Under the pieces are notes generated by a model. The model did no database searches and was not told the origin of the DNA. It saw only the letters and a program-made list of their open reading frames with translations. A stretch of DNA of 64,000 bases from Nonomuraea cypriaca (GTDB taxonomy: Bacteria; Actinomycetota; Actinomycetes; Streptosporangiales; Streptosporangiaceae), in the NCBI RefSeq assembly GCF_015645445.1, contig NZ_JADOGI010000011.1, positions 1 through 64,000 on the forward strand, read 5' to 3'. This document shows positions 19,014-35,064 of this stretch, piece by piece; positions within the stretch are counted from its first letter, which is position 1, and the number at the start of each line of letters is the position of its first letter. A program made the translations under genes and the position numbers.

Positions 19014-20638
19014 ATGTCCAATGCGTCTATCATCTGCTCCAACCTGTCCTTTTCCTGGCCTGACGACACGCCCGTCTTCAGCGACCTCTCCTTCACCGTG
19101 GGCGCGGGCCGTACCGGCCTGGTCGCCCCGAACGGCGCGGGCAAGAGCACGCTGCTCAAGCTGATCGCCGGCGAATACCGGCCCGGCGGCGGCGGCGTGT
19201 CCGTCAACGGCGTGCTCGGCTACCTGCCGCAGAGCCTGCCGCTGGTCGGCGACCTGACCGTGGCCGAGGTCCTGGGCATCGCGCCCGTGATCGCCGCGCT
19301 GGACGCCATCGAGTCGGGCGACGCGAGCGAGGAGCACTTACCACGATCGGCAACGACTGGGACATCGAGGAGCGCACCCGTGCCCAGCTCGACCGGCTCG
19401 ACCTCGGCGACCTCGCGCTCGACCGCACGACGGGCACGCTGAGCGGCGGCCAGGTCATCTCGCTCGGCCTGGCCACGCAGCTCCTCATGCGGCCCGACGT
19501 GCTGCTGCTCGACGAGCCGACGAACAACCTCGACCTCGGCGCGCGCCGCAGGCTGCACACCGTGCTCAGCGACTGGAACGGCTGCCTGCTCGTGGTCAGC
19601 CACGACCGGGCCCTGCTCGACCGCATGGACCGCATCGCCGAGCTGGACCGGGGTGAGATGCGCTACTACGGGGGCGACTTCACGGCGTATGAGGAGGCCG
19701 TACGCACCGAGCAGGAGGCCGCCGAGCGGACCGTGCGCAGCGCCGAGCAGGAGCTCAAGCGCGAGAAGCGGGAGCTGCAGCAGGCCCGCGAGCGCGCCGA
19801 ACGCCGGGCGAGCAACGCCGCCCGCAACCTCAAGAACGCCGGCCTGCCGCGCATCTTCGCCGGGAACATGAAGCGCGGCGCCCAGGAGTCGGCCGGGCGG
19901 GCGGGCCAGACGCATGCCGCCCGCGTCAGCGACGCCAAAACCCGGCTCGACGAGGCGGGACGCGCGGTGCGCGACGAGCAGAAGATCGTCCTGCACCTGC
20001 CCGGGACCAACGTGCCCGCCGGGCGCACGGTCTTCCACGGCGAACACCTGCGGGCCCGCGGCCTGTTCGCCGAACCCGGCCTCGACCTGACGGTCCGCGG
20101 GCCCGAGCGCATCGCGCTGACCGGCCCCAACGGCGCAGGCAAGTCCACCCTGCTGCGCCTGGTCAGCGGCGAGCTGGAGCCCGACGGCGGCACGATCAGG
20201 CGGGCCGACGGCCGGGTTGCCTACCTGTCGCAGCGGCTGGACCTGCTCGACGTCGAGCGCACCGTGGCCGAGAACCTGGCCGCCTTCGCGCCGGGCATGC
20301 TCGAAGCCGAGCGGATGAACCTGCTGGCCCGCTTCCTGTTCCGGGGCGCGCGGGCGCACCTGCCGATCGGCGTGCTGTCGGGCGGCGAGCGGCTGCGCGC
20401 CACGCTGGCCTGCGTGTTGTGCGCGGAGCCGGCACCCCAGCTCCTGCTGCTCGACGAGCCCACGAACAACCTCGACCTGGTCAGCGTGGGGCAGCTCGAA
20501 AGCGCGCTCAGCGCGTACGAGGGGGCGTTCGTGGTGGTCAGCCACGACGAGCGATTCCTGGCGGAGATCAAGGTGGAGCGCCGGCTGGAGTTGTCCGGCG
20601 GGCGGCTGCTGGAGACCGGGGGGCCCGCCGGTGAATGA
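19014..20638 (+). pseudogene. ABC-F ATPase with a single-base frameshift
   Basis: ABC-F proteins act on the ribosome (antibiotic protection or translation factors) and have two ABC domains without membrane segments. Domain 1: Walker A 'APNGAGKSTLLKL', Q-loop 'GYLPQSLPL'. At 19338-19340 one base is missing ('CACTTACCACG' where CACTTCACC is expected), shifting the frame. The other frame continues 'GNDWDIEERTRAQLDRLDLG', 'LSGGQVISLGLATQLL', Walker B 'VLLLDEPTNNLDL'. The Arg/Glu-rich linker (~residues 225-310) and domain 2 ('TGPNGAGKSTLLRL', 'LSGGERLRATLACVL', 'LLLLDEPTNNLDLV') are complete. Only this lesion separates it from a ~540-aa functional gene. It overlaps the next ABC-F gene by 8 bases. 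Confidence 0.85.
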
Positions 20639-25035: not shown

Positions 25036-25575
25036 ATGCCCGTGGACCACTACTACCTGCTCGGACGCTCGGGGTTGCGCGTCAGCCGGCTCGCGCTCGG
25101 CACGATGAACTTCGGCACCGGCGGCTTCCACGCCGCGTACGGCAAGACCGAGCAGGAGGCCCGCCCGATCTTCCGCCGCTACCTCGAAGCGGGCGGGAAC
25201 TTCGTCGACACCGCCGACTTCTACACCGCCGGCGAGAGCGAGACCATCCTCGGCAACCTGATCGCGGAGGCCGGGGTGCGCGACCGGGTGGTGCTGACCA
25301 CCAAGTTCACCAACAGCGTCGATCCCGCGGACCCGAACGCGGGAGGCAACGGGCGCAAGCACATGATCCGGGCGGTCGAGGCGTCACTGCGCCGTCTGCG
25401 CACCGACTACATCGACCTGTACCTGCTGCACACGTGGGACCGGATCACGCCCGTCGAGGAGGTCATGCGGACCTTCGACGACCTCACCAAGGCCGGGAAG
25501 ATCCGCTACGCGGGCCTGTCGGACGTGCCGGCCTGGCCGACCGTACAGAATTGGGTGCCGGACAGCGCCGCCTGA
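25036..25575 (+). pseudogene. Aldo/keto reductase, N-terminal half
   Basis: NADPH-dependent (alpha/beta)8-barrel enzyme. 'LGRSGLRVSRLALGTMNFG', 'AGGNFVDTADFYTAGESE' (catalytic Asp and Tyr), 'LTTKFTNSV' (Lys) and 'YIDLYLLHTWDRITPVEEVM' (His) are present, so the active-site tetrad is encoded. The sequence breaks after 'IRYAGLSDVPAWPTVQNWVP' and stops at residue 179; ~150 residues including the NADPH-clamping C-terminus are missing. GGAG lies 11 bases before the ATG at 25036. The operator at 24956 indicates that it was the regulated target of the upstream TetR. Confidence 0.8.
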
Positions 25576-26925: not shown

Positions 26926-27396
26926 TCAGTTTCTTAGGGGGTCGAGGAGGATCTGGGCAGGATTGAACGGTAAGCCAGGGGCCCGGTGCACCACCCCGGC
27001 GGCGTGCATCGCGGTGAGCGCCTCCCCCAATCCGGCCGCCACGCCGTACAGTTCGTCGCCGGAGAGCGGGCCGTCGTCCTGCGCCCGGCGCTCCAGCGTC
27101 GGGCCGGGCACGTATTCGGTCGCCACCCAGGGGGTGCCGCTGCCGATGTCGGAGCCGAGCACCTTCGCCGTACACAGGCCGCCCACCCGCCGCAGCACGC
27201 CGACCTCCCTGGCGAACCTCGCCACGAACTCGTCGTCCCCGGTGTGGGCGGGATGGATCAGCTTGACGGCGGCACGTGTCCCGGAGGCGTCGACGCCGGC
27301 GTAGACGACACCCATGCCGCCCATGCCCAGGCGTCCCACGATGCGGTACGGGCCGACCGTCTCCGGCAGGTCCGAGGAATGCGCTCGGGCGTCCAT
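26926..27396 (-). pseudogene. Ser/Thr protein kinase, truncated in the catalytic loop
   Basis: Hanks-type kinase N-lobe: 'YRIVGRLGMGGMGVVYAG' (Gly loop), 'TRAAVKLIHPA' (catalytic Lys), 'WVATEYVPGPTL' (hinge). At 'AAGVVHR' the HRDLKPxN loop should follow, but the sequence continues 'APGLPFNPAQILLDPLRN' and stops at residue 156. Catalytic Asp, DFG and the whole C-lobe are missing, so it cannot be active. The junction lies next to the AT-rich block upstream of the M23 gene. Confidence 0.8.
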
Positions 27397-28827: not shown

Positions 28828-28925
28828 CGTCGCGCCTGGCGCCGGTCAGGGGTGGAGCGAGCTCGGGGTCGCGCCGGCGGAACGTGATGAGTTTCCGATC
28901 GTGCGTGCGGTGGGACAGACCTCGC

Positions 28926-30077
28926 ATGGGCGACATGTGGGACGTGGCGATCGTGGGAGCGGGACCGGCGGGCTCGGCGGCGGCGCTGCGGGCCGCGCAA
29001 CTACGCCCGGAACTGCGCGTGCTCCTGCTGGACAGGGCCGACTTCCCCCGTGACAAGCCGTGCGGCGACGGCATCGCCGCCCACGGGCGCGACGAGCTGG
29101 CCCTGCTGGGGCTGCCCGCGCTCATCGACGACTACCGGCCCACTCCCCGCCTGACCGTGGTCTCGCCGGGCGGGGTGCGGGTCTCCGCCGAGGCCGCGCG
29201 GCCCAATCACGTGGTGCCGCGCCGGGTGTTCGACGCTCGCCTGGTGGCCGCCGCGCGGGCCAGGGGCGTCGAGGTACGCCGCCACCGCGTCAAGAATCTC
29301 GTCTTCGACGGGTCCGGGGTGGTCATCGACGGGCGGCTGCGGGCCCGTACGGTGGTGGCCGCCGACGGGGCCGGCTCGGTCGTGCGCCGCCTGATCGGCC
29401 TGGGCGCCGCCGCCGAGAAGCACACCGCCATCGCCGTGCGCGGCTATGCCGACGTGCCCGAGCAGGACGATGTCCAGCTCATCGCCATGCAAAAGGCGGG
29501 CTGGCCGGCCTATGCGTGGTCGTTCCCCATCGGCGACGGCACCGCGAACGTCGGCTTCGGCATGCTGCTGCCCCGGCTGCGCGCGGCGGGCGCGCCCGGA
29601 CGTCAGGTGCTGCACGGCAGGCTCGCCGAGCTGCTGCCCGACCGGCCCGCCCGCGATCTGCGCGCCCACCACCTGCCGCTCTCGACCGGGCGGCCGACGC
29701 CCGGCGCTGGACGGGTCCTGCTCGCCGGTGACGCCGCAGGGCTGATCAACCCGCTCACCGGCGAGGGTATCTACTACGCGCTGCTGTCCGGGCGGCTGGC
29801 GGCCGAGGCGGCGGTGGAGTCGCCGGGCGATCCGCTGGCGCTGTACCGGGGCAAGCTGCGCGGGGCGCTCGGACGGCACCTGCGCACCACCGACGTGCTG
29901 GCCCGGCTGGCCCAGTCCCCCGGTTTCATCGACGCGGCGATCGAGACCGCCGCGCGCCGCAAGAACGTGTTCGACCTGCTGGTGGAGGTGGGGCTCGGGG
30001 CCGGGACGGTGCCCGCGCCGCTCGCGCTGGCCGTGGGGATGCGGTGGCTGCGCGGATCCCTGCGCGCCGGGCGGTGA
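28926..30077 (+). CDS. Geranylgeranyl-reductase-family FAD oxidoreductase
   Basis: 383 aa. 'DVAIVGAGPAGSAAALRAAQ' is the Rossmann GxGxxG, 'FPRDKPCGDGIAAHGRDEL' the PxxKxCGxG signature of the GGR family, 'VVAADGAGSVVRRLIG' the DG motif, and 'GRVLLAGDAAGLINPLTGEGIYYAL' the FAD ribose/GD motif. Members reduce isoprenoid double bonds (menaquinone side chains, geranylgeranyl lipids). ATG 28926 is chosen; the frame is open back to 28884 without family sequence. It is convergent with the UbiA gene and 1 kb from the type III PKS, so a role on a prenyl chain of the same product is plausible. Confidence 0.85.
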   Translation: MGDMWDVAIVGAGPAGSAAALRAAQLRPELRVLLLDRADFPRDKPCGDGIAAHGRDELALLGLPALIDDYRPTPRLTVVSPGGVRVSAEAARPNHVVPRRVFDARLVAAARARGVEVRRHRVKNLVFDGSGVVIDGRLRARTVVAADGAGSVVRRLIGLGAAAEKHTAIAVRGYADVPEQDDVQLIAMQKAGWPAYAWSFPIGDGTANVGFGMLLPRLRAAGAPGRQVLHGRLAELLPDRPARDLRAHHLPLSTGRPTPGAGRVLLAGDAAGLINPLTGEGIYYALLSGRLAAEAAVESPGDPLALYRGKLRGALGRHLRTTDVLARLAQSPGFIDAAIETAARRKNVFDLLVEVGLGAGTVPAPLALAVGMRWLRGSLRAGR

Positions 30078-30098
30078 GCGGGCGTGGAGCCATGCAGG

Positions 30099-30974
30099 TC
30101 ACGCGGTGAGCGACGCGCCGCCGGCGACCAGGAGGATCACGTCCACGGCCGCCACGGCGACGGCGGTGACGAACGGCACCCGTGAGGACCTGGCGGCCAG
30201 TAGCAGCCCTGTGGCCGCGAGGGCCGAGGCGGCGGCTACGGCCAGCCAGCCCGCCACCCCGGGGGCGGCGCCTCCGGGGCCGAAGACGAGCAGGCAGGTG
30301 GCGGCCAGCAGCGGCACGGGGACCAGAAGCCGTACGCGGGCGGTGCCCATGTGCTGCGGCCAGCCGCGTACGCCGGTGTACAGGTCGCCCGCGATGTCCG
30401 GCAGCACGTTGGCCAGATGCGCGCCCACACCGAGCAGCGCCGCGGCCAGGATGGCCCACCACGCGGGCCACGGCTCACCGGGCAGGCCCAGTGTCACAAA
30501 GGCCGGCAGCACGCCGAACCCCACGGCGTAGGGCACCCACGACAGAAGTGTCGCCTTCAGCCCGAAGTCGTACCCCCAGGCCGCCAGCACCCCCGCGAGG
30601 TGCAGCGCGCCCGCCCGCCAGCCGGAGGCCAGCGACAGCGGCACGCAGCAGGCCAGCGCCACAAGAGCGGCGATCCAGACGGCACGCGCGCTCACCGTGC
30701 CGCCCGCGACGGGCTTGCCCGCGCGCCCGGTCGCCGCGTCCCGCTCGGCGTCGATCGCGTCGTTGCACCAGCCGATCGAGAGCTGCCCCGTCAGCACGGC
30801 CGCGCCCGCCAGCACGCACCCGACCGCGTCGCGCCCCGTGGCCACGGCCAGCGCGGTGACCAGAGCGGTCACGGCCGCGGTCGGGCCGGGATGGCACGCG
30901 CGCGCCAGTCCGACGGCCAGCCGCCCCGGGCCATCGCGCACGACGGCGGCGGCCACGGGGTCGGGGTCAGTCAC
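30099..30974 (-). CDS. UbiA-family prenyltransferase
   Basis: Integral membrane enzyme of ~291 aa from GTG 30974. 'IGWCNDAIDAERDAATGRAGKP' is the first Asp-rich motif (N-D-x2-D-x3-D) that binds the prenyl diphosphate via Mg2+, and 'ANVLPDIAGDLYTGVRGWPQ' the second (D-x3-D). Eight to nine hydrophobic helices surround them ('AVTALVTALAVATG', 'IAALVALACCVPLSLASG', 'LAVAAASALAATGLLLAA'). It transfers a prenyl chain to an aromatic or quinone acceptor. It diverges from the type III PKS operon, with starts 121 bases apart, so shared control of a prenylated phenol/quinone pathway is likely. Confidence 0.88.
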   Translation of the reverse strand: MTDPDPVAAAVVRDGPGRLAVGLARACHPGPTAAVTALVTALAVATGRDAVGCVLAGAAVLTGQLSIGWCNDAIDAERDAATGRAGKPVAGGTVSARAVWIAALVALACCVPLSLASGWRAGALHLAGVLAAWGYDFGLKATLLSWVPYAVGFGVLPAFVTLGLPGEPWPAWWAILAAALLGVGAHLANVLPDIAGDLYTGVRGWPQHMGTARVRLLVPVPLLAATCLLVFGPGGAAPGVAGWLAVAAASALAATGLLLAARSSRVPFVTAVAVAAVDVILLVAGGASLTA

Positions 30975-31095
30975 AAGATGATCGTAGACCCGGCGATCGC
31001 CGCCGAGTTTTCCTACGCCCCATTCGTGGCTTAAATGACCATTTGAACGGGAAACGTGCGGGAGTGAGAGCTGTCGGCTGCCGAGGGAGAACTGC

Positions 31096-32148
31096 ATGAC
31101 CCGTATCGCCGCAGTGCGTTGTGCTTTTCCTCCCCACCGATACCCACAGTCCGAGCTCACCGACATGGCCGCCCGCGTGTGCCTGCCGGAGAACGCCGAC
31201 CGGCGCCTCCTCGATCGCCTGCACCGCAGCGCCCGGGTGGACTACCGCAACCTCGCCCTGCCCATCGAGCAGTACGAGAAGCTCAACGGCTTCGGCGCCG
31301 CCAACGACGCCTTCGTCTCGGTCGCCGTGGACCTGGGGCTCGAGAGTGCGAAGGCCGCCCTGGACGCGGCCGAACTGGAGCCGACCGACGTGGACATGAT
31401 CATGTTCACGTCGGTGACCGGCATCGCCGCGCCCTCCGTTGACGCCCGGCTGGCGGCGGCGCTCGGCCTGCGGCCCGACGTCAAGCGGGTGCCCATCTTC
31501 GGCCTGGGCTGCGTGGCCGGAGCGGCGGGCATCGCCAGGATCCACGACTATCTGCGCGGCTGGCCGGACCACGTGGCCGTGCTGCTGTCGGTGGAGTTGT
31601 GCTCGCTCACCGTGCAGCGGGGCGACTCCTCGCCCGCGAACCTCGTCGCCAGCGCGTTGTTCGGCGACGGCGCGGCCGCCGTGGTGGCCTGCGGCGGCGG
31701 ACGCGGGGCGGGCGGTCCCACCGTGGTGGCCACGCGCAGCCACCTGTATCCGGGCTCCGAGCACGTCATGGGGTGGCAGGTGGGCGACACCGGGTTCCGG
31801 GTGATGCTGGACGCGAGCGTCCCGGCGGTCGTGCGGCGATACCTGGCCGACGACGTGCACGGCTTGCTGGCCGAGCACGGCGTGACGGCCGGGGAGGTGA
31901 CGGCGTGGGTATGCCATCCCGGCGGGCCGAAGGTACTCGAAGCCGTGTCGGACGTGCTCGACCTGCCCGCGGACGCGCTCGACGTGACATGGCGCTCGCT
32001 GGCGGCCAACGGCAACCTGTCCTCGTCCTCGGTCCTGCAGGTGCTCGGTGACACCCTCGCCACCCGGCAGCCCGAGCCGGGAACCTGGGGACTGATCATC
32101 GCCATGGGGCCGGGCTTCTGCTCGGAACTCGTCCTGATCCGCTGGTGA
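31096..32148 (+). CDS. Type III polyketide synthase
   Basis: 350-aa chalcone-synthase-fold enzyme. Catalytic triad positions are visible: Cys139 in 'IFGLGCVAGAAG', His274 in 'WVCHPGGPKV' and Asn307 in 'LAANGNLSSSSVL'. 'GPGFCSELVLIRW' is the typical end of the family. It condenses malonyl-CoA on an acyl starter, often fatty acyl in the SrsA/ArsB-like group, to give alkylresorcinols or alkylpyrones. It is first in an operon with an ICMT-like methyltransferase and a flavin monooxygenase, the same order as srsA-srsB-srsC described from Streptomyces griseus. The starter is unknown. Confidence 0.92.
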   Translation: MTRIAAVRCAFPPHRYPQSELTDMAARVCLPENADRRLLDRLHRSARVDYRNLALPIEQYEKLNGFGAANDAFVSVAVDLGLESAKAALDAAELEPTDVDMIMFTSVTGIAAPSVDARLAAALGLRPDVKRVPIFGLGCVAGAAGIARIHDYLRGWPDHVAVLLSVELCSLTVQRGDSSPANLVASALFGDGAAAVVACGGGRGAGGPTVVATRSHLYPGSEHVMGWQVGDTGFRVMLDASVPAVVRRYLADDVHGLLAEHGVTAGEVTAWVCHPGGPKVLEAVSDVLDLPADALDVTWRSLAANGNLSSSSVLQVLGDTLATRQPEPGTWGLIIAMGPGFCSELVLIRW

Positions 32149-32182
32149 CCGCGCCCATGACCCGACTGCTGGTGACCGCCTT

Positions 32183-32704
32183 ATGACCTGGTATCTGATA
32201 CTCGTCGTGCTGGTCGGCCTGGAACGTGTGGCCGAGCTGGTCGTCGCCCGGCGCAACGCCGCGTGGAGCATGACGCGCGGCGGTGTCGTAGCCGGTCAGG
32301 GGCACTATCCGTGGATGGTGGCCCTGCACACCGGGTTGCTCGTCTGCGCGCCGCTGGAGGTCGCGCTGGCGGAGCGGCCCTTCCTTCCCGCGCTCGGCTG
32401 GCCGATGCTCGCCCTCGTCGTGGCGGCCCAGGGGTTGCGGTGGTGGTGCATCATCTCGCTCGGGCCGCGCTGGAACACGCAGGTGATCGTGGTGCCCGGC
32501 CTGCCGCTGGTGACGCGCGGCCCCTACCGGTTCCGGTGGCTGCGGCATCCCAATTACGTGGCGGTGGCGATGGAGGGGCTCGCGCTGCCGCTGGTGCACA
32601 CGGCCTGGATGACCGCGCTGCCGTTCACGGTGCTCAACGCCGCGCTGATGGTGGTGCGGATCCGATGTGAGAACGCGGCTCTCGCCCTCGCCTCGGGGCG
32701 GTGA
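32183..32704 (+). CDS. ICMT-like membrane methyltransferase (SrsB-type)
   Basis: 173 aa with about four transmembrane helices ('LILVVLVGLERVAELVVARR', 'LALVVAAQGLRWWCIISLG', 'AWMTALPFTVLNAALMVVRI'). The SAM-binding signature of the isoprenylcysteine carboxyl methyltransferase family is present: 'GPYRFRWLRHPNYVAVAMEG' and, near the end, 'RCENAAL' (normally R-x2-x-E-E). In T3PKS operons the homologue SrsB methylates the alkylresorcinol ring or hydroxyl. The start follows the PKS stop by 34 bases and the gene ends 4 bases before the monooxygenase start, so the three are one transcription unit. Confidence 0.85.
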   Translation: MTWYLILVVLVGLERVAELVVARRNAAWSMTRGGVVAGQGHYPWMVALHTGLLVCAPLEVALAERPFLPALGWPMLALVVAAQGLRWWCIISLGPRWNTQVIVVPGLPLVTRGPYRFRWLRHPNYVAVAMEGLALPLVHTAWMTALPFTVLNAALMVVRIRCENAALALASGR

Positions 32705-32708
32705 CGTC

Positions 32709-33722
32709 GTGATCGACGTGCTCGTCGCAGGCGGCGGCCCGGCGGGGCTGGCGACGGCCGTTCATGCGGCGCTGGCGGGGATGGAGGCGGTCGTCGTCGA
32801 GCCGCGTGCCTGTCCCGTGGACAAGGCGTGCGGCGAGGGCGTCATGCCGGGCGGGGTGGCGGCGCTGGAGGCAATAGGGGTGGAGGTCGAGGGGCGCGAG
32901 TTCCGCGGCATCCGCTACCTCGACGGGCGGCGGGAGGTGCGGGCCGCCTTCTCCGCCGCTCCCGGGCTGGGCTTACGCCGTACGCATCTGCATGCCGCGC
33001 TCACGCGGCGGGCCGCCGAACTGGGCGTCAAGACGGTCACCGGCAAGATAACCCGCGTCGAGCAGGACCGAGACGGCGTGGAGGCCGCCGGGCTGCGGGC
33101 ACGCTGGCTGGTGGCCGCCGACGGGCTGCACTCGCCGCTGCGCCGCTCCCTCGGCCTCGACCTGCCCGCGCGCGAACCCCGCAGGTACGGCCAGCGCAGG
33201 CACTACAGGATCGAGCCGTGGACCGACTTCGTCGAGGTCCACTGGTCGGGCGCCGGCGAAGCGTACGTCACGCCCGTCGCCCGGGACCTGATCGGCGTCG
33301 CGATACTCAGCTCGGTGCGGCGCGGCTACGACGAGCACCTGCGCGGCTTCCCCGACCTGAGCCGCCGCCTGTGCGGCCCGGCCGTCACCCCGGTGCGCGG
33401 CGCGGGCCCGCTGCGCCAGGCCGTGCGCGCCCGCCGCGCGGGACGCGTCCTGCTGGTCGGGGACGCCGCCGGCTACGTGGACGCGCTCACCGGCGAGGGC
33501 GTCTCGCTGGCCGTGCGCTCGGCCGAACTGCTGGTCAGGTGCCTGGCCGAGGACCGGCCCGAGGACTACGACGGCGCGTGGCTGCGGCTGTCTCGCACCC
33601 ATCGGCTGCTGACGGGCGCGCTGGTGCAGGCCGCGCGCCGCCCCGGCACGGCCCGGCTGGTGGTGCCCGCCGCCCGCCGCCTGCCCGCCCTGTTCACGGG
33701 CATCGTCAGGATCCTCGCCTGA
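32709..33722 (+). CDS. FAD-dependent monooxygenase (SrsC-like)
   Basis: 337 aa. 'DVLVAGGGPAGLATAVHAAL' binds the FAD adenosine, 'PVDKACGEGVMPGGVAALEA' is a CGEG motif of the PHBH/GGR-like group, 'WLVAADGLHSPLRRSLGL' is the DG motif and 'GRVLLVGDAAGYVDALTGEG' the GD motif. In the analogous srs operon such an enzyme hydroxylates the methylated alkylresorcinol to a methoxyhydroquinone, which oxidises to a quinone. GTG 32709 is chosen, just after the methyltransferase stop. It could alternatively act as a second prenyl-chain reductase, as it shares the CGEG with the gene at 28926. Confidence 0.85.
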   Translation: MIDVLVAGGGPAGLATAVHAALAGMEAVVVEPRACPVDKACGEGVMPGGVAALEAIGVEVEGREFRGIRYLDGRREVRAAFSAAPGLGLRRTHLHAALTRRAAELGVKTVTGKITRVEQDRDGVEAAGLRARWLVAADGLHSPLRRSLGLDLPAREPRRYGQRRHYRIEPWTDFVEVHWSGAGEAYVTPVARDLIGVAILSSVRRGYDEHLRGFPDLSRRLCGPAVTPVRGAGPLRQAVRARRAGRVLLVGDAAGYVDALTGEGVSLAVRSAELLVRCLAEDRPEDYDGAWLRLSRTHRLLTGALVQAARRPGTARLVVPAARRLPALFTGIVRILA

Positions 33723-33902
33723 CATTTCCCGTTCGTCGAGGCCGTCCTCGAGCACTTCGTGCCCGGATTCCGGCACACCGACTTCGTCGAGGTCATCATG
33801 AACTCACTGTCACAGCCTGCACTGGTCGACCTGCCGTCACGGTGGCCGGCCCGAAGGGTCGTCGGCGGCGAGGCCGCGCCACCGCCCGTGGCAGCAGGTC
33901 AC

Positions 33903-34085
33903 TCATGACCGGGGCGGGGCGGTGGCGAAGTGCTCGCGGATCGTGGTCAGGACCGCGGGGGCCTGCTCGGTCAGGTAGAAGTGGCCGCCGGGGAAGATCT
34001 TGACGTCGAACGGTTCCTGGGAGTGTCGCGCCCAGTCGCGCGCCTCGTCGACGGTGGTGTGCGTGTCGCGGTCGCCGGGAGGCCG
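33903..34085 (-). pseudogene. Type II thioesterase C-terminal remnant
   Basis: 'TTVDEARDWARHSQEPFDVK' 'IFPGGHFYLTEQAPAVLTTIREH' is the end of a type II thioesterase (GrsT/TylO-like), with the catalytic His in 'PGGHFYL'. The Ser nucleophile half is gone. It is one more sign that biosynthetic genes once surrounded this locus. 33723-33902 shows a short unassigned frame ('VEAVLEHFVPGFRHTDFVEV'). Confidence 0.65.
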
Positions 34086-34094
34086 GCGACCTGT

Positions 34095-34255
34095 ACGACC
34101 CCGCAGTCCGGGCCAACCGGCGAGCCGATCTCGATGGACTTGGCCGCCGTGCGCCCGATGCGACCCGATCCGCGGCTGTCGGATCATGCCTCGGGCAGCC
34201 CCATCCGTACCGCGCAGGAAGAGTTCAACCACACCTACTGCACCCTGCCTCCCCG
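34095..34255 (+). pseudogene. Remnant of the ferritin-like/CDGSH fusion gene family
   Basis: 'TTPQSGPTGEPISMDLAAVR' 'PMRPDPRLSD' and 'RTAQEEFNHTYC' match, almost residue by residue, an internal block of the 601-aa protein encoded at 59029-60834 ('TPQSGPTGEAVSVDLAGVRP', 'RTAQEEFNHTYCAVLHLLE'). It is a fragment of a second copy, oriented opposite to the thioesterase remnant it touches. Confidence 0.7.
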
Positions 34256-34296
34256 CTGCGCGACGAGCGCGACCGTCTCCAGCGGAGTAGGCGCGG

Positions 34297-35064
34297 CTAC
34301 CATGTTTGGTCGCCGGCACGAACCAGCATCTCGTTGACGGCGACCCGCCGCTCTCGCGTGACGATGTAGCTGATCGCGTCCGCGATGTCCTCCGGCCGCA
34401 GCGCCTCGATTCCGTCGAGCTGCCGGCGGGCCGCGTCCCGGGTGGTGTCGCTGACGTGGTTCACCAGCTCGGTGTCCACGGAGCCGGGCTCCACCACGCT
34501 GACCCGGACGCGTTCGCTGAGCAGTTCCTGGCGAAGCGATTCGGTGAACGCGTTCAGGCCGAACTTGGTCAGGCCGTAGACGCTGCTCCCAGGCCGGGCG
34601 ACTCGCCCGGCCGTCGAGCTGACGTTCACCAGATCCGCCACCTGCCGCGGGGATGTCGACGCCGCGTAGATCAGGTGCGGGATGGCGGCGTGCGTGACGT
34701 GCAACAGCGCCGCCACGTTGAGCGAGATCATCCGATCCCACTCCTCGATGGTGGTGTGCAGCGCCGAGTTGAGCAGCATGATCCCGGCGTTGTTGACCAG
34801 GATGTCCAGGCGCCCGAACCGGTCCAGCGTGTCCTGGACCATATCGTCGGCGCGTTCGGGCTCGGTGATGTCGGCCTCTATCGCGACCGCCGCTCCTCCT
34901 AGCTTCGCGATGTCGTTCGCGACCTGGTCCAGGCGGTTGCGGCGACGGGCGGCCAGGGCGACCGCCGCGCCCTCGCGGGCGAGGCGACGCGCGGTCGCGG
35001 CGCCGATTCCGCTGCTGGCGCCGGTGACGAGCGCGACGGCTCCGTCCAGCGGCCGATCGTACAT
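34297..35064 (-). CDS. SDR-family NAD(P)-dependent oxidoreductase
   Basis: 255 aa, complete classical SDR. 'VALVTGASSGIGAATARRLA' (TGxxxGIG), 'AIEADITEPERADDMV' (Asp binding adenine), 'LVNNAGIMLL', 'LVNVSSTAGRVARPGSSVYGLTKFGL' (Ser, Tyr-x3-Lys) and 'VEPGSVDTELVNHV' are all present. Substrate not predictable. It is preceded at 35072 by the end of a dehydrogenase remnant. No obvious regulator is attached. Confidence 0.88.
   Translation of the reverse strand: MYDRPLDGAVALVTGASSGIGAATARRLAREGAAVALAARRRNRLDQVANDIAKLGGAAVAIEADITEPERADDMVQDTLDRFGRLDILVNNAGIMLLNSALHTTIEEWDRMISLNVAALLHVTHAAIPHLIYAASTSPRQVADLVNVSSTAGRVARPGSSVYGLTKFGLNAFTESLRQELLSERVRVSVVEPGSVDTELVNHVSDTTRDAARRQLDGIEALRPEDIADAISYIVTRERRVAVNEMLVRAGDQTW

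Follow-up and report, generated by a model that had tools for sequence, protein, structure and literature searches.

What would a type III polyketide synthase (T3PKS) locus make that also carries a prenyltransferase and a prenyl reductase-like flavoprotein, and which of its enzymes would act on the prenyl tail? The question is raised by five genes at positions 28,926 to 33,722 of a 64,000-nucleotide stretch of Nonomuraea cypriaca DNA (contig NZ_JADOGI010000011.1, from a genome of 11.5 Mb), the whole of which is called the window here. The genes are arranged in the order geranylgeranyl reductase (GGR)-like flavoprotein, UbiA-superfamily prenyltransferase, T3PKS, ICMT-type methyltransferase, and flavin adenine dinucleotide (FAD)-dependent enzyme. 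By analogy with two known systems, srs and agq, the locus is probably a hybrid of the two that would yield an O-prenylated, prenyl-reduced alkyl methoxyhydroquinone, with the GGR as the candidate prenyl reductase. Its features are the following:

28926..30077, plus strand: GGR-like flavoprotein, candidate prenyl reductase, 383 amino acids (TIGR02032)
30099..30971, minus strand: UbiA-superfamily prenyltransferase of the AgqD-containing subfamily, 290 amino acids, GTG start (PF01040, tree)
30972..31095: divergent intergenic region of 124 bp, with the imperfect palindrome TGGCTTAAATGACCA
31096..32148, plus strand: T3PKS, SrsA/Pks11-like, 350 amino acids (Pks11 match, Pfam, tree)
32183..32704, plus strand: ICMT-type membrane methyltransferase, SrsB-like by family and position, 173 amino acids (PF04140)
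32709..33722, with an alternative earlier start at 32667, plus strand: FAD-dependent hydroxylase, SrsC-like by family and position, 337 amino acids (PF01494)
28876..33731: DNA block common to near relatives, comprising the five genes and nothing else (blastn, five relatives)

All five reading frames are open, and each product passes the cutoff of the family to which it is assigned: the T3PKS with 69.1 and 61.9 bits on PF00195 and PF02797 (cutoff, 27), the UbiA protein with 68.5 bits on PF01040 (34.2), the methyltransferase with 88.4 bits on PF04140 (24), the FAD enzyme with 68.1 bits on PF01494 (22), and the GGR with 191.3 bits on the NCBIfam model TIGR02032 (158.8); on the Pfam family GGR_cat, the last of these scores 19.6, below the cutoff of 27. 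The GGR and UbiA genes converge, their ends 21 bp apart, while UbiA and the T3PKS diverge over 124 bp and the remaining gaps measure 34 bp (T3PKS to ICMT) and 4 bp (ICMT to FAD). An earlier note on this DNA had described five intact genes, consisting of an srsABC-type core (T3PKS, ICMT, and FAD enzyme in that order on one strand) to which a prenyltransferase and a prenyl reductase had been added, and this description stands. The T3PKS contains Cys139, His274, and NGN at position 305, and its best relative of solved structure in the PDB is Pks11 (E value, 1.8e-118). The UbiA protein carries the motifs NDAIDAERD and DIAGD; a phmmer search of the PDB returned no match for it at an E value of ≤0.001. 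As a lead only, W225 of the T3PKS (in "MGW") may correspond to the tryptophan linked to resorcinol formation in PMC9927152.

Within Nonomuraea, the five genes form one unit. Window-type T3PKS, UbiA, and GGR genes (≥77% identity) are confined to one and the same set of 16 genomes out of 36, an association beyond chance, and the order and orientation of all five genes are the same in 15 of the 15 other carriers; the relatives thus keep these neighbors, whose consistent absence the earlier note had considered. The carriers are not flawless, in that the FAD gene is cut at a contig end in two (L037 and L038), the FAD match is split into two pieces in two (L042 and L046), the T3PKS match is likewise split in three (G014, G016, and G030), and the UbiA-GGR spacing is 1.4 to 2.2 kb longer in three (L041, L042, and L054). 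Measured against five relatives, dN/dS is 0.16 to 0.36 for each of the five genes, which are under purifying selection. When positions 20,001 to 45,000 of the window were compared by blastn with five near relatives, matches were confined to 28,876 to 33,731, the right edge being tested by three of the five relatives because the contigs of the other two end inside the FAD gene. Since the sequences outside these limits differ among the relatives, the block sits in different surroundings.

The earlier note had placed the intact genes in otherwise decaying DNA, which is true in part. Three truncated remnants do lie by the block, covering about half of an aldo-keto reductase profile (25036 to 25575) and about half of a kinase profile (26926 to 27396) on its left and the end only of a thioesterase profile (33903 to 34319) on its right; however, a full-length S-adenosyl methyltransferase-domain protein and a short-chain dehydrogenase/reductase flank the block as well. 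Pfam scans of several further flanking frames gave no match. In the divergent promoter region between UbiA and the T3PKS, the palindrome (31040 to 31075) is kept in the closest relatives, as seen in an alignment of five, and is possibly an operator; beyond these five, conservation of the intergenic region is poor.

A second T3PKS, 59% identical to that of the window, occurs in most Nonomuraea genomes, including the present one (L035:5472-7048, contig C172), and forms a clade of its own (loci L056 to L062 and L065 to L073 were examined). No ICMT gene adjoins it at an E value of ≤1e-8 in 8 of the 9 block carriers examined, and one is present in 8 of the 8 noncarriers examined, as if the ICMT of the block served both synthases.

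Might the UbiA protein and the GGR be the MenA and MenJ of housekeeping menaquinone synthesis? They belong to the same superfamilies, and the GGR scores 122.3 bits on the MenJ model NF045655; the cutoff of that model is 700, however, and for the window UbiA no MenA model, TIGR00751 included, gives a hit at an E value of ≤0.01. The genome has a separate MenA gene elsewhere (C457; 242.5 bits on TIGR00751, cutoff 102) and a second, more MenJ-like GGR on C323 (239 bits over the 315 amino acids scanned, again under 700), and 20 of the 36 Nonomuraea genomes do without the window UbiA and GGR altogether. We rejected this explanation as extremely improbable, and the possibility that the UbiA gene is a MenA orthologue, raised in the earlier note, falls with it. 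Its suggestion of a menaquinone-like product with a long tail was also dropped, since no evidence points to one; by analogy with agq, a short O-prenyl chain is likelier. The genome further encodes heme o synthase elsewhere and a fourth UbiA-family gene (C33), for which no NCBIfam model matched on the fragment scanned.

The core of the locus resembles srsABC of Streptomyces griseus and pkqABC of Mycobacterium smegmatis, systems for alkyl and polyketide quinones in which T3PKS, methyltransferase, and FAD enzyme are ordered as in the window (PMC9927152, PMC5916927). In contrast to these, the window has UbiA and GGR in addition, and prenylation would give an ether rather than a free quinone. When 84,980 species genomes were scanned with a UbiA alignment, at least 394 confirmed relatives came up; the best 80 named loci were analyzed and, having been chosen by likeness to an agq-type UbiA, are not a random sample and give no background rate. 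Among them, 47 combine UbiA with T3PKS, ICMT, and FAD genes (3 with a GGR and 44 without, 34 of the latter from Streptomyces, including one S. griseus strain [L165]), 15 are of the agq type (agq-type T3PKS plus UbiA), and 7 more are agq type with a GGR; one short contig carries a methyltransferase, UbiA, and GGR, and 10 loci have neither core in the stretch. The four-gene loci, found in Streptomyces, Kitasatospora, Planobispora, Gephyromycinifex, and others, share the divergent UbiA with the window, and UbiA beside T3PKS-ICMT-FAD has been reported in one strain (PMC8779670). Unlike the window, none of the 41 Streptomycetaceae loci has a GGR of the same subfamily. The addition of UbiA to srsABC was accordingly rejected as a new combination, and the novelty claimed in the earlier note was overstated, all the more so as a prenylated, prenyl-reduced alkyl methoxyhydroquinone is known from agq; the new part is the GGR.

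These loci bear on an alternative in which T3PKS, ICMT, and FAD enzyme alone cooperate, their product being a methylated alkylresorcinol quinone like those of srs/pkq, with separate roles for UbiA and GGR. For one Streptomyces strain, PkQ is indeed attributed to an operon of three genes (PMC9927152), and among relatives, three T3PKS-ICMT-FAD loci lack a neighboring UbiA (L050, L051, and L052). The frequent adjacency of UbiA to the trio in many genera argues the other way, albeit among loci chosen by their UbiA, as does the exact co-inheritance of T3PKS, UbiA, and GGR in Nonomuraea, and we consider a trio acting by itself improbable.

The second system, the agq cluster of Actinoplanes missouriensis, was reportedly described by Awakawa et al. 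in 2011 as making alkyl-O-dihydrogeranyl-methoxyhydroquinones. We located it in A. missouriensis 431 (G633) at about 8,380,119 to 8,383,888, where a T3PKS, an acyl-CoA-dehydrogenase-like enzyme, a methyltransferase, and a divergent UbiA are encoded; agqB to agqD would account for methylation, hydroxylation, and prenyl transfer. The products reported for this strain are 6-alkyl-4-O-dihydrogeranyl-2-methoxyhydroquinones (PMC3569393), that is, prenylated and prenyl-reduced alkyl methoxyhydroquinones (PMC3569393, PMC7692728). The cluster is thus like the window in its T3PKS, methyltransferase, oxidative enzyme, and divergent UbiA, and its genome has a GGR of the same subfamily; the two UbiA proteins are 46% identical over 279 amino acids and belong to one subfamily. 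The differences lie in the core, since agq has a Methyltransf_11-type methyltransferase and an acyl-CoA-dehydrogenase-like enzyme (by blast and the Pfam matches of relatives) where the window has ICMT and FAD_binding_3, and in the GGR, which is 330 kb away from agq but inside the locus in the window.

On the T3PKS tree, the 15 agq rows lie on one side of a branch marked 100* and the window lies on the other, in two clades far apart. On the UbiA tree (quick method), the window falls in a 28-row srs-linked clade and A. missouriensis in an 18-row, mostly agq-linked clade, and the core type changes three times among 62 rows; a profile (A1) built from the window, srs-linked, and agq-linked UbiA rows finds both kinds. 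The same UbiA subfamily has therefore been combined with two unrelated cores. As the core enzymes differ from those of agq and UbiA and GGR are added to those of srs, we filed the locus as a hybrid variant, neither agq nor plain srs. The losA locus of Micromonospora endolithica (loseolamycins) also has UbiA and methyltransferase neighbors by its T3PKS but, unlike the window, these neighbors are of the agq type (acyl-CoA dehydrogenase), and the products reported are alkylresorcinols (PMC7587189).

In the pathway that we propose by analogy with srs/pkq and agq, the T3PKS would extend a fatty acyl starter to an alkylresorcinol or alkylresorcylic acid, the ICMT-type enzyme would O-methylate this product, and the FAD enzyme would hydroxylate it to a 6-alkyl-2-methoxyhydroquinone, the last two steps as in srs/pkq. 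The isoprenyl group then transferred by UbiA would be short, probably geranyl, and its acceptor probably a ring oxygen, as in agq; the ring would thereby be kept from turning into a plain quinone. Finally, the GGR would saturate at least one isoprenyl double bond, before or after the transfer, to give a dihydrogeranyl-type ether. Overall, an srs-type core would receive an agq-type finish, resulting in a membrane phenolic lipid.

Which of the two flavoproteins would be the reductase is suggested by the motif YXWXFPX7-8GXG described for the GGR family (PMC6309074). The GGR of the window has it at position 196 as YAWSFPx8GFG (YAWSFPIGDGTANVGFG), and YXWXFPX8GXG was not found in the FAD enzyme, which makes the former probably a reductase and the latter probably a hydroxylase. 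Cys46 of the GGR, judged by its position, may be the equivalent of the catalytic cysteine of the family.

Beyond Nonomuraea, the GGR follows UbiA. In a phylum sample of 396 genomes (E values of ≤1e-60 for GGR and ≤1e-30 for UbiA and T3PKS), GGR was found in 20, UbiA in 42, and both in 19 (Fisher, 7e-20), G344 having a GGR without UbiA; among 101 Micromonosporaceae genomes, with GGR in 48 (E value, ≤1e-40), UbiA in 92, and the agq-type T3PKS in 82, UbiA was present in 48 of 48 GGR-positive and 44 of 53 GGR-negative genomes (Fisher, 0.002), both Fisher values overstating the case because the genomes are related. A larger Micromonosporaceae draw gave GGR in 181 of 289 genomes, and 12 of the 42 named UbiA genomes that were searched, drawn from the 80 loci above, carry one. 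The two genes are often unlinked in the phylum sample, lying far apart or on separate contigs (G334, G195, G302, G313, and G173). Where they are neighbors, at least four arrangements exist: the GGR gene converges on UbiA in Nonomuraea and on an agq-type UbiA in Pseudonocardia (GGR adjoins such a UbiA in eight Pseudonocardia or Pseudonocardiales loci), closes the srs trio in a Pseudonocardiales metagenome-assembled genome (L104), and is part of a single co-directional run UbiA-GGR-T3PKS-ICMT-FAD of overlapping or close genes in G106 and G130, which belong to another class. In G066, of the same genus as the latter two, the genes for UbiA, GGR, and T3PKS lie side by side on the same strand. On the UbiA tree, GGR adjacency (18 of 77 rows) changes four times.

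On these grounds, we tentatively propose, with slightly less than even confidence, that this GGR subfamily is the reductase making the dihydrogeranyl group of agq-type lipids, in concert with one UbiA subfamily that was joined to two unrelated cores, and that the lipid class is widespread and convergent. In A. missouriensis 431, the gene in question would be that at 8,048,566 to 8,049,624, whose product is 53% identical to the window GGR over 330 amino acids. Our literature search on agq and the reductase, among the excerpts it covered, found no paper naming a dihydrogeranyl reductase; the original agq study lay outside that search, and one may be in print.

Several observations weigh against these proposals. 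Of 40 GGR rows, five depart from the full motif, and in G106 and G130 YAWSFD replaces YXWXFP. Three of the 19 UbiA co-occurrences are weak (G070, G084, and G097; E values of 1e-32 to 1e-37), and the association of GGR with T3PKS is looser than that with UbiA, at 13 of 20 in the phylum sample. The agq T3PKS is of another clade and is 36% identical to that of the window. For Phytohabitans strains with agqA-D orthologues, the expected masses were absent from the liquid chromatography-mass spectrometry reported in PMC7692728. All 18 streptomycete genomes searched have UbiA without a GGR of the window's subfamily, so reduction would be optional. The A. missouriensis GGR adjoins not agq but a cis-prenyltransferase gene (PF01255; L221:7704-9628), a neighborhood that would also be consistent with a free prenyl donor being reduced. 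A GGR stands beside a cis-prenyltransferase in three other Micromonosporaceae loci as well (L222, L226, and L230).

The last point leads to a rival explanation, in which the substrates of the GGR are free polyprenyl diphosphates or phosphates, or else a UbiA product unrelated to T3PKS, and the T3PKS cluster borrows a donor that is already reduced. Besides the cis-prenyltransferase neighbors, it would account for the UbiA- and GGR-positive genomes in which a T3PKS is missing at the thresholds used (7 of 19 in the phylum sample, namely G141, G195, G302, G313, G363, G372, and G441, and, for the agq type, 8 of 48 in the Micromonosporaceae); in some bacteria the pair may have another acceptor, unless the T3PKS fell below the threshold. 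Some known GGRs, furthermore, reduce farnesyl or geranylgeranyl diphosphate (PMC6309074). It is harder to reconcile with the all-or-none linkage to the T3PKS block across the 36 genomes of Nonomuraea and with the five-gene co-directional run in another class, and we think it rather unlikely, if clearly the most serious of the alternatives; the distinction also concerns the order of events more than the result, a prenyl-reduced lipid being the end product either way. On the side, the UbiA genes L197, L199, L201, L203, and L209 come from five GGR-positive genomes without a T3PKS at an E value of ≤1e-30, and members of the same UbiA subfamily (L083, L085, L086, and L229) lie near CarD and IspF genes with no T3PKS in the stretch (Pfam, L083). 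CarD and IspF neighbors are genes of general isoprenoid metabolism.

Under the hybrid reading, the GGR is a concrete candidate for dihydrogeranyl formation, a step left unnamed in the agqA-D set as given in the papers cited, and its candidacy rests on co-inheritance across many lineages plus neighborhood. That a single UbiA subfamily is paired with two unrelated sets of enzymes, in what are probably routes to one kind of lipid, suggests that selection acts to retain the prenyl ether. Once O-prenylated, the ring would no longer cycle as a quinone, a point that bears on whether UbiA-bearing srs-type operons make respiratory polyketide quinones. If the proposal is true, prenyl-reduced O-prenyl phenolic lipids would be a widespread actinobacterial class built by convergent routes.

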